A DNA stretch of 64,000 nt from Sphingomonas vulcanisoli. Its GTDB lineage: Bacteria; Pseudomonadota; Alphaproteobacteria; Sphingomonadales; Sphingomonadaceae. The stretch is from contig NZ_JAAOZC010000003.1 of assembly GCF_011761305.1 (NCBI RefSeq), positions 248,001-312,000 on the forward strand, given 5' to 3'. The notes below the pieces were generated by a model. The model was given only the letters and a program-made list of their open reading frames with translations. It had not been told where the DNA came from and did not search any database. Made by a program: the position numbers and the translations under genes. Positions 21,918 through 28,608 of this stretch are shown here, one piece after another (within the stretch, counting starts at the first letter, position 1; every line of letters begins with the position of its first letter).

Positions 21918-22207
21918 CGTCCCGTGGCCGTCGCCGCTTCGGTTTCGGCCAACATCTTCGTGCCCGACATGGGGGATGCCGATCCTAGGGCTTCGGCACT
22001 GTCAGCACCGTGATCCGTCGTCATCGCAGCCGGGAGCGACCGCCGGCTTCATCGGGATAGCTCTGGACAAATATATGTGCGCTAGGGCAGGTTCAACGTA
22101 CTTTTATATCATTGGAACGTATTTAGCGTAATTAAATTACCAAAGGGGCTTTGACACGCAACTTTCTTGCCTCTAACCGGTCGCTTCCCAAGCGAACTGG
22201 ACGAATC
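21918..22207. other. Non-coding stretch upstream of ilvB
   Basis: About 290 bases between miaA and ilvB without a convincing gene. The right part (22070-22150) is notably AT-rich and is the likely promoter area. TTGACA at 22151 has no good -10 partner (TAACCG after 17 bases). No Ile/Val/Leu-rich leader peptide was found, unlike upstream of leuA. Confidence 0.4.
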
Positions 22208-26293: not shown

Positions 26294-26698
26294 TCAGGCG
26301 GCTGCGCGGACCCGCGCGAAGCCGCGGAAGAGCTCGCGGATGTTGGCATCCGCGACGCCTGCCGTCAGCTCATCGACCAGGGTGGCCATGTCGGACGCCC
26401 TGGCCGTAGCCACCTTCTGCGCCGCCATGGCCCACTCCCCGAACGATCGTTCGGTCGTGTCCTTGCTGCTCAGCAGCACTACCGCACGGTGGCGGGGATC
26501 GGCTTTGATCCGTTCATAGGTGCGGTTGACCAGCACGGGCTCGCCTTCCAGCGCCTGCAGGAAGCGGCGGCCATCGTACAGCAGCAGCCCGGTCACGCCC
26601 GCGGCCGCATTGTTGCGCCGGGATGCCGTCAGGATCGTCTGAACCTCGGCATCGTTCACCGTCGCCGTTGCCGAGCTGATGTAAGTAAGTTGGATCAC
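26294..26698 (-). CDS. Short BLUF-domain blue-light photoreceptor
   Basis: 134 residues. LTYISSATATVNDAEVQTIL opens a BLUF domain; the flavin-site residues are in place: Tyr6, Asn30, Gln48 (RRFLQALEG) and the WAM motif Trp89/Met91 that signals the light state. Only about 35 residues follow the domain, so output must be through protein-protein contact. A hairpin (AGCCA...TGGCT with inner GGCGG/CCGC arms, 26725-26756) lies upstream. It is divergent from the leu leader and convergent with yceI; there is no obvious effector gene beside it. Confidence 0.93.
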   Translation of the reverse strand: MIQLTYISSATATVNDAEVQTILTASRRNNAAAGVTGLLLYDGRRFLQALEGEPVLVNRTYERIKADPRHRAVVLLSSKDTTERSFGEWAMAAQKVATARASDMATLVDELTAGVADANIRELFRGFARVRAAA

Positions 26699-26770
26699 TG
26701 CGGCCTCCCTTGGAAGGTTGAGCTAGCCAATGGCGGTTAACAGCCGCTAAATGGCTGGACGTTTGTGTCC

Positions 26771-26890
26771 GCATCGCCTAGGCGCGGGCCATGCCGTCGC
26801 TGCGCAGCCTTCTCCTGCTTCGACTTACGCGCCCTTAGGCGCGTCGATTTCGCGCGGCTGTCCGCCGCCGCTCACCGCCTAAGGGACCAT
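26771..26890 (+). promoter_or_regulatory. Putative leucine attenuator / leader RNA of leuA
   Basis: The leader peptide at 26791 is surrounded by mutually exclusive pairings. CGCCTAGGCG (26775-26784) can pair in part with TAGGCG (26836-26841). ACGCGCC-CTTA-GGCGCGT (26827-26844) is a perfect 7-bp hairpin over the leader stop codon. CCCTTAGGCG (26832-26841) is also exactly complementary to CGCCTAAGGG (26876-26885). A ribosome stalled at the Leu codons (26809-26826) would favour one pairing, a ribosome at the stop another. No U-run follows, so the output could be Rho-dependent or translational. Confidence 0.6.
26791..26838 (+). CDS. leuL: Leucine-rich leader peptide upstream of leuA
   Basis: A 15-codon frame, MPSLRSLLLLRLTRP then TAG, has six leucines, four consecutive (CTT CTC CTG CTT). 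It ends about 105 bases before the leuA start in the same direction. Such peptides act as leucine sensors in attenuators of leu operons. There is no strong ribosome site, only GGCGCGGGCC just before the ATG. The identification rests on the Leu run, the position and the overlapping hairpins. Confidence 0.65.
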   Translation: MPSLRSLLLLRLTRP

Positions 26891-26943
26891 AGACCGCGCA
26901 AATGACCGCGCGCCCCGATCCTTTTCGAGCACGAGTGACATCC

Positions 26944-28608
26944 ATGACTATGCTGGCCGACCCTTCCGTCAAATATCGCCCTTTCCCGCAGATCCATATC
27001 CCCGATCGCCAATGGCCGTCGCGCACGATCACCAAGGCGCCCCGCTGGCTCTCCACCGATATGCGCGACGGCAATCAGGCGCTGATCGATCCGATGGACG
27101 AGGAGAAGAAGCAGCGCTTCTTCGATCTGCTCTGCAAGATTGGGCTCAAGGAAATCGAGGTCGGCTTCCCGTCGGCGGGCGCCACCGAGTTCGATTTCAT
27201 CTCGGGCCTCGTCAAGCAGGGCAAGATTCCGGACGATGTCGTGATCCAGGTGCTGACCCAATCCCGCCGTGACCTGATCGAGAAGAGCTTTGAGAGCCTC
27301 GTCGGCGCCAAACAGGCGATCGTCCACCTTTACAATGCGGTATCTCCGGCCTGGCGGCGGATCGTCTTCCAGATGAGCCGGGACGAGGTGCGCGAGATCG
27401 CTATCACCGGCGCCAAGCTGCTGCGCGACGAAGCTGCCAAGCAGCCGAATGTCGATTGGCATTTCGAATACAGCCCGGAAACCTTCTCCACCGCCGAACT
27501 CGATTTCAGTCTGGAGGTTTGCGAGGCGGTGATGGGCGTGCTCCAGCCGACGCCCGATCGCCCGATCATCTTCAACCTGCCCGCCACCGTCGAGGCAGCG
27601 ACGCCCAACATCTACGCCGATCAGATCGAATATTTCTGCCGCAACATCCCCAATCGCGATGCCGTGGTGGTCTCGCTGCATACGCACAACGATCGTGGCA
27701 CCGGCGTCGCGGCGGCGGAGCTGGGGCTGATGGCGGGCGCCGATCGCGTCGAGGGCTGCCTGCTCGGCAATGGCGAGCGCACCGGCAATTGCGATCTCGT
27801 GACTGTGGCGATGAACCTCTACACGCAGGGCGTCGATCCCGGCCTCGATTTCTCGGACGTCGATGAGGTGGTGAAGACGGTCGAATATTGCACCAATATC
27901 CCCGTCCACCCGCGCACGCCCTATGCCGGCGATCTGGTGTTCACAGCTTTCTCAGGCAGCCATCAGGACGCGATCAAGAAGGGGTTCGCCGCGCAGGAGC
28001 AGAGCAACAGCGGGCTGTGGAGCGTGCCCTATCTGCCGATCGATCCCGCCGATCTCGGCCGCAGCTATGAAGCGGTGATCCGCGTCAATTCGCAAAGCGG
28101 CAAGGGCGGTGTCGCCTGGGTGATTGAGCAGGACAAGGGGCTGAAGCTCCCCAAGCGTCTGCAGGCGGATTTCAGCCGCGTCGTGCAGGCGCTGGCCGAC
28201 GAACACAGCCGCGAGTTGAACGCTGCCGATATCTGGGGCGCGTTCGAGAAACAGTATCGGCTGATCGGGCAGCAGGCGTATGATCTGGTCGATTATCACG
28301 AAGGCCGCGCCGATGGCGATCGGCTGTTCACCGGCACGATTCGCCATGGCGGCAAGGAAAGCTCGGTCAGCGGGCGCGGCAACGGGTTGCTGTCGAGTGT
28401 CGTCGCCGGCCTGAAGAGCGGCTTTGGCATCGATCTCGATATCGTCGATTATTCCGAACATGCGATCGGGCATGGATCGGGCGCCAAGGCCGCGGCCTAC
28501 GTGGAAGCGCGGACGCCGGAAGGGCGCACTTTGTTCGGTGTCGGGGTCGATGAGGATGTTGCCACCGCATCGGTCAAGGCGCTGCTCGGCTGCGCCAACG
28601 CGATTTGA
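26944..28608 (+). CDS. leuA: 2-isopropylmalate synthase
   Basis: 554 residues from ATG 26944, giving [17 protein letters not shown] as in close homologues; ATG 26902 is a weaker alternative. It is the long LeuA type: [20 protein letters not shown] (metal-binding Asp), [20 protein letters not shown] (HxH metal site) and [13 protein letters not shown] in the TIM barrel, and a C-terminal LeuA dimer/regulatory domain (about 430-554) for leucine feedback. It condenses acetyl-CoA with ketoisovalerate in the first leucine-specific step. No leuCDB genes are nearby. The upstream leader suggests leucine-dependent attenuation as well. Confidence 0.96.

Follow-up and report, generated by a model that had tools for sequence, protein, structure and literature searches.

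In the window, a 64,000-nucleotide stretch of Sphingomonas vulcanisoli DNA (contig NZ_JAAOZC010000003.1), leuA (26944-28608, forward strand) encodes a 2-isopropylmalate synthase of the leuA_yeast type, scoring 802.9 bits against TIGR00970 (cut-off 697.4). Its start was assigned by relatives, in most of which LeuA begins at the position that corresponds to ATG 26944; an in-frame ATG at 26902 has no counterpart in most of them. Upstream, on the same strand, lies a leader peptide ORF (26791-26838; ATG 26791, TAG 26836-26838) encoding MPSLRSLLLLRLTRP, whose 15 codons include six for Leu, located at 26800, in the run CTT CTC CTG CTT at 26809-26820, and at 26824. The leader stop is separated from leuA by 105 nt, and the 15-codon frame with six Leu codons, four of them consecutive, which the initial annotation had described about 105 bases before leuA, was found exactly as placed. 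The Leu-rich frame is kept in relatives, and the control codons CTT CTC CTG CTT CGA CTT (26809-26826, forward strand) end with a Leu codon that was CTT or CTA in the 149 sphingomonad and 99 class rows counted; the leader ORF has runs of control codons, as do ribosome-mediated transcription attenuators. On both strands of the window, this ORF was the sole ATG frame of 8-30 codons with a run of four Leu codons, and its stop is overlapped by an exact 10-bp inverted repeat; the leader ORF together with the repeat exceeds what chance would give. The leader motif matched exactly once in the organism's own genome, with 32 other matches carrying two mismatches, and a control pattern (the motif read backwards) gave 33 matches in all. 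Further copies of the element in this genome were rejected because the control pattern matched equally often.

A promoter-like pair precedes the leader (26756-26782, forward strand), consisting of TGGAC (26756-26760), a 16-nt spacer, and CCTAGG (26777-26782), and it recurs in relatives. TGGAC was found at -100 to -25 in 69 of 149 relatives, compared with 5 of 149 for a control stretch and 3 for the reversed sequence, and the extended pattern TGGAC N15-18 [CG][CA]TA appeared in 41 of 149 rows (window included) and in neither control, its second box ending 6-11 nt ahead of the leader start in 38 of the 41 matches. No match to a consensus sigma-70 promoter was found at the window leader. The conserved TGGAC pair suggests a putative promoter, and because its CCTAGG box ends 8 nt ahead of the leader ATG, the transcript 5' end would probably lie near that ATG. 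Divergently from the leuA leader, and with an upstream region in common, runs a gene for a BLUF blue-light sensor (26294-26698, reverse strand; PF04940, 106 bits). TGGAC also occurs at 22040-22150, ahead of ilvB (ATG at about 22208), along with a short frame whose end is at 22131; inspection by eye of the region upstream of ilvB in the window revealed no clear run of branched-chain codons.

Regions upstream of LeuA were taken from named contigs and from genomes of the same family, and 159 sphingomonad loci, the window included, yielded 149 rows. Four loci were dropped for missing the row anchor CGACT[TA][AT]; three of these (L110, L199, and L206) carry motif variants matched by R2, a class-wide covariance model, and the fourth (L027) has little DNA upstream of leuA. 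Two loci without the motif (L189 and L205) and four that were duplicates or had no start were also dropped. At most family loci, leuA is preceded by a leader-type peptide with an end such as RLTRP, RLIRP, or RLTRPWA. Upstream of the conserved Arg, the leader frame of the 149 rows had 467 Leu codons out of 894, whereas the two other frames had 61 and 17. The leader stop fell at either of two places in 148 of the 149 rows, giving peptides that end in P or, 6 nt further on, in PxA, and where TAG was changed to TGG, CGG, or CAG, the stop lay 6 nt further on in 58 of 59 rows. The last Leu codon was CTT in 139 and CTA in 10 sphingomonad rows, which had been selected for CGACTT or CGACTA, the invariance of CGACT therefore being due to the row anchor by construction. 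The corresponding counts were 93 CTT and 6 CTA in the 99 class rows, which were taken without anchor selection, although the covariance model favours CGACT[TA].

Covariance models extended the element across the class. The first, R1, was built from 33 sphingomonads and matched 29 of 142 genomes spread across the class; 18 of its best 20 loci adjoin a LeuA homologue, and two matches without LeuA (L225 and L234) are not among the 100 class loci described below. Matches to R2 were found in 166 of the 199 Sphingomonadaceae family genomes, in 111 of the 385 genomes of the class set (covering 86 of its 277 genera), and in 29 of the 200 genomes of the phylum set. Three of the phylum-set matches fell outside the class and were weak (E 0.01-0.023); these three and the weakest in-class match of the phylum set (L274-L277) had no LeuA within 1500 nt downstream. 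The first 100 class loci comprised the window, 91 other class-screen genomes, and eight phylum-set loci, and LeuA lay downstream on the same strand in all 100, with homology beginning 46-415 nt (median 81) past the match; the phylum-set loci L263 and L264, near contig starts, stand outside this tally. Among the 19 remaining class-screen genomes, 15 had LeuA downstream and four were family members with LeuA beside the match, the 15 later-checked loci being left out of the covariation and pairing counts given below. The best R2 match consequently stood just upstream of LeuA in 111 of 111 matched class genomes, an agreement that is to some extent built in, as R2 rows came partly from LeuA-linked matches. 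Weaker second matches occurred in two class-screen genomes, and one genome had an antisense match on its own element. At the gathering score, none of the 4227 families of Rfam 15 matched the window or 13 class loci, and three weak matches at E<=10 all belonged to unrelated families; identity with a known Rfam 15 family was thus rejected.

Other LeuA loci were also searched. None of 20 non-sphingomonad LeuA loci matched R2 better than E 0.029, the value of a weak match (18.6 bits; L078:2918-2978) just ahead of leuA in a Granulosicoccus MAG, which is not a member of the class; the frames listed upstream of leuA at this locus include no Leu run, and the match may be due to chance. A different Leu-rich leader, with LPIGCRA or a similar end, stands ahead of leuA of the leuA_yeast type at loci from Betaproteobacteria, chiefly Burkholderiales (L039, L043, L044, L045, L048, L049, L052, L055, L065, L077, and L079), and the one tested, L049, gave no R2 match. 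At halomonad loci (L053, L058, L062, L066, L069, and L076), short frames rich in Leu and containing L[DN]LRL end about 240-350 nt before the LeuA homology start used for counting.

The leader is shared by two types of LeuA. Sphingomonadaceae LeuA is mostly of the leuA_yeast type, and most examined class loci have leuA_bact. Beside the best R1 class loci, 16 of the 18 LeuA homologues were 24-31% identical and represent the other LeuA type, two of them being assigned to leuA_bact by NCBIfam, and at the 100 examined class loci LeuA was best matched by the leuA_bact query in 97 and by the yeast type in 3. One genome (G052) has both types, at C1:1626518 and C1:2175766, and the element precedes its leuA_bact copy only; its leuA_yeast copy (L205) had no leader element in either the motif or the R2 search.

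Two pairings around the leader stop had been proposed in the initial annotation, and both are present in the window. Hairpin A (26827-26844, forward strand) crosses the stop codon with 7 bp (26827-26833 with 26838-26844) and the loop CTTA, and helix B joins the stop-containing 5' arm CCCTTAGGCG (26832-26841, forward strand) to the exactly complementary 3' arm CGCCTAAGGG (26876-26885, forward strand), with 34 nt between them. The lowest-energy fold places a small hairpin of variable sequence (26851-26870) within the helix B loop, the sequence of which varies among relatives. Compensatory changes, for which an alignment of relatives had been suggested, were evident for helix B both in sphingomonads (60 rows: 98.2% of cells paired, 38 two-sided cells) and in the class, where 97.6% of cells were paired with 48 two-sided cells in the MAFFT alignment A3 and 96.5% with 65 two-sided cells in the structure-fitted alignment; in each case, 0 of 500 shuffles reached the covariation score. 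RNAalifold on the 60 sphingomonad rows returned helix B and no further helix. Helix B was part of the lowest-energy fold in 127 of 149 sphingomonads and 87 of 97 class rows, and the leader stop occupied the same place in it in 94 of 100 class loci. Hairpin A, which has nucleotides in common with helix B so that the two are mutually exclusive, had 93% of cells paired and 21 two-sided cells (0 of 500 shuffles) in the 60 sphingomonads, but its number of covarying pairs did not exceed that of shuffled alignments (215 of 500), and in 102 class matches its pairing was at chance level (64.6% versus 64.1% in shuffles). Hairpin A as a conserved switch was therefore rejected class-wide. The suggested alignment bore out the Leu run and the covariation of helix B and failed to do so class-wide for hairpin A. 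The proposed competition between hairpins corresponds to two exclusive pairings in sphingomonads; since class-wide pairing of hairpin A does not rise above chance, this competition is not the conserved core of the element.

A further part of the element, absent from the initial annotation, is a base stem, here termed P1, in which the Leu codons pair with the leuA Shine-Dalgarno region. In the window, the 5' strand consists of Leu codons plus CGA (26812-26823, forward strand; paired at 26812-26814, 26816-26818, and 26820-26823; -10.6 kcal/mol), and the 3' strand lies over the putative weak leuA Shine-Dalgarno region (26925-26935, forward strand). The region from -24 to +3 around the conserved CGA was paired with the 28 nt before leuA, comparing own with permuted partners. 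In 149 sphingomonads, the own duplex averaged -13.56 kcal/mol against -10.99 for permuted partners (z -11.5), and the difference was retained after thinning to 60 rows of <55% identity (z -6.3), with controls between +1.0 and -2.5; in the class rows, z was -7.6 (n=99) and -6.2 (n=83), with controls of -2.1 to -0.3. That some controls reach z -2.0 to -2.5 counts against P1. To allow for relatedness, partners were swapped between nearest relatives: among 74 sphingomonad pairs, the own partner was better in 59 and the swapped one in 13 (sign p 1e-7), and among 49 class pairs the counts were 31 and 18 (sign p 0.085, Wilcoxon 0.0036). Of the nucleotides before leuA, those at about -18 to -10 relative to its start codon paired most often. 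P1 of the window is among the weaker ones, with 0.74 and 0.64 of swaps equal or better, and it lies outside the lowest-energy fold, the P1-forced fold being 2.6 kcal/mol above the free fold; P1 of at least six pairs was part of the lowest-energy fold in only 98 of 149 sphingomonads and 77 of 97 class rows. Coverage of the Shine-Dalgarno region was not leader-specific (own 0.77 versus swapped 0.69 in sphingomonads; 0.66 versus 0.76 in the class) and failed as a specific test of P1, swapped leaders being about equal. Leu codons fit Shine-Dalgarno sequences in general, and what covaries in P1 is the extent of the stem. The comparisons suggest that in most examined Alphaproteobacteria the Leu codons can pair with the leuA ribosome-binding region.

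Masking the Leu codons in silico, as a stalled ribosome would, left the Shine-Dalgarno region more open on average, at 0.51 instead of 0.37 in 149 sphingomonads and 0.51 instead of 0.33 in 97 class rows, and a control mask hardly changed the mean (0.37 and 0.35, respectively). Counting changes of >0.05, the Leu-codon mask opened the region in 98 of 149 sphingomonads and closed it in 14, and opened it in 65 of 97 class rows and closed it in 11, compared with 4 and 9 opened and 8 and 2 closed under the control mask. In the window, the Leu-codon mask raised openness only from 0.22 to 0.27 and a stop-codon mask gave 0.34; with so little change, the masked fold of the window by itself was set aside as support.

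Taken together, these patterns make it fairly probable that the element is a leucine-responsive translational leader, that is, an upstream ORF controlling leuA. Transcription would start at or just before the leader ATG, and ribosomes would load on a nearly leaderless mRNA. When leucine is plentiful, the leader ribosome would reach the stop inside helix B and leave, whereupon helix B could refold and place the Leu codons beside the leuA Shine-Dalgarno region, and their pairing as P1 would hinder leuA initiation. When leucyl-tRNA is short, a ribosome presumably stalled on the Leu codons would occupy one strand of P1 and leave the leuA ribosome-binding site open, so that leucine shortage would switch leuA on. 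Leu codons such as CTC and CTT resemble the anti-Shine-Dalgarno sequence of 16S rRNA, and sensor and lock would therefore be the same nucleotides. The conserved parts, the covarying pairings and the promoter-like pair are observed; that the ribosome stalls, in which direction leuA responds, and how its translation is affected are what we infer from them. P1 alone does not account for the role of helix B, which may contribute by bringing the P1 strands together, through timing, or through RNA stability.

The output of the leader bears on the alternatives. No terminator-like site was found in 26600-27000, and TTTT within 10 nt after helix B occurred in only 11 of 149 sphingomonads and 4 of 99 class rows; an intrinsic terminator before leuA was rejected on these grounds. 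The initial annotation had likewise seen no U-run terminator and had proposed a translational or Rho-dependent output, which the absence of such a terminator supports. Rho-dependent attenuation, in which Rho would use an unstructured C-rich stretch past helix B once the leader ribosome has gone and would be blocked from it by a stalled ribosome or by helix B, appears unlikely, although it could act jointly with P1. It is favoured by the base composition of the stretch from helix B to around the leuA start (C 0.35 against G 0.22 in the 149 sphingomonads, and C 0.30 against G 0.25 in the class rows) and by the missing intrinsic terminator in the window stretch, but the C excess is modest, this stretch shows little sequence conservation, and Rho usage does not predict the covariation of P1. 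Classical attenuation of transcription, in which the role of terminator or antiterminator would fall to hairpin A or helix B, could draw on the control codons of the leader peptide and on the two exclusive pairings in sphingomonads; it is nevertheless improbable, given that most rows lack a U-run after helix B, that the window stretch holds no terminator-like site, that hairpin A is at chance level class-wide, and that RNAalifold found no additional helix in 60 rows. Sensing of the nascent peptide itself, as an arrest sequence with the conserved C-terminus RL(T/I/M)RP, is also hardly probable: RL[TIMS]RP occurs in 148 of 149 sphingomonad rows (RLTCP in the other) and P directly precedes the stop in 90, yet the conservation is explained by helix B, of which these nucleotides are part, 59 of the 149 rows end in A or V past P, and the residues vary across the class (LLLIRP, LRLRCP, LLLSRP). 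Least credible is a riboswitch-like protein or small-ligand site made of helix B and the nearly invariant unpaired CTTA, since this tetranucleotide, although present as CTTA (93) or CTAA (6) ahead of the covarying helix in 99 of 99 class rows, is favoured by the model and contains CTT or CTA, rare Leu codons (7.3% and 2.1% of those in long window ORFs) that any sensor ORF would favour, and since the helix B loop varies.

Like the leader described here, enterobacterial leuL encodes, ahead of leuA, a peptide with several Leu codons in a row. The initial annotation had proposed control by the same principle, which our results do not support: the U-run terminator of the enterobacterial attenuator is missing here, so that the two do not match, and no Rfam family was matched. 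The proposed translational leader is best read as resembling, in the principle of its working, the actinobacterial LEU element. The LEU report describes a Leu-codon leader ORF before leuA, a base stem in which the run of Leu codons pairs with the Shine-Dalgarno box of leuA, and a pseudoknot or alternative hairpin within that stem, remarks on missing attenuator parts, and cites Streptomyces leuA leader mutations with an effect unlike classical attenuation (PMC1262725). The leader ORF is present here too, and the stem of Leu codons with the Shine-Dalgarno region is supported in the family and weak in the window itself; the present element differs in having a single long helix B that covaries and carries the leader stop in its 5' arm. 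Among alphaproteobacterial leaders, Sinorhizobium meliloti trpL is described as leaderless, its mRNA beginning at its own AUG, with Trp control and an attenuator sRNA (PMC10117765). A start at the leader's own AUG is suggested here by promoter spacing, but no terminator was found. The ilv leaders likewise involve a branched-chain amino acid leader peptide but belong to another gene: Caulobacter ilvIH is reported to be subject to transcription attenuation by a rho-independent terminator hairpin (PMC4117421), and an alphaproteobacterial ilvB leader is attributed to Vitreschak 2004 (PMC1273637). The portions of these three papers (PMC10117765, PMC4117421, and PMC1273637) that we consulted describe no alphaproteobacterial leuA leader, and none was found in the published literature searched, an earlier prediction in Vitreschak 2004 being possible.

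Because both LeuA types stand behind the same leader, its distribution may be read as that of a leader kept in place while the enzyme was replaced. There is, in our judgment, about an even chance that the whole picture holds, namely a class-wide RNA family absent from Rfam 15 and the searched literature, Leu codons that act as both sensor and anti-Shine-Dalgarno lock, and a leader that stayed while the leuA type changed. The covariance model allows the element to be annotated in any genome. If the proposed reading is true, many Alphaproteobacteria would tune leucine synthesis simply, without a terminator or a regulator protein, and Leu codons, resembling the anti-Shine-Dalgarno sequence, may be predisposed to the role of lock. 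With two distant LeuA types behind it, the leader would show clearly that a regulatory RNA can outlive the gene under its control.
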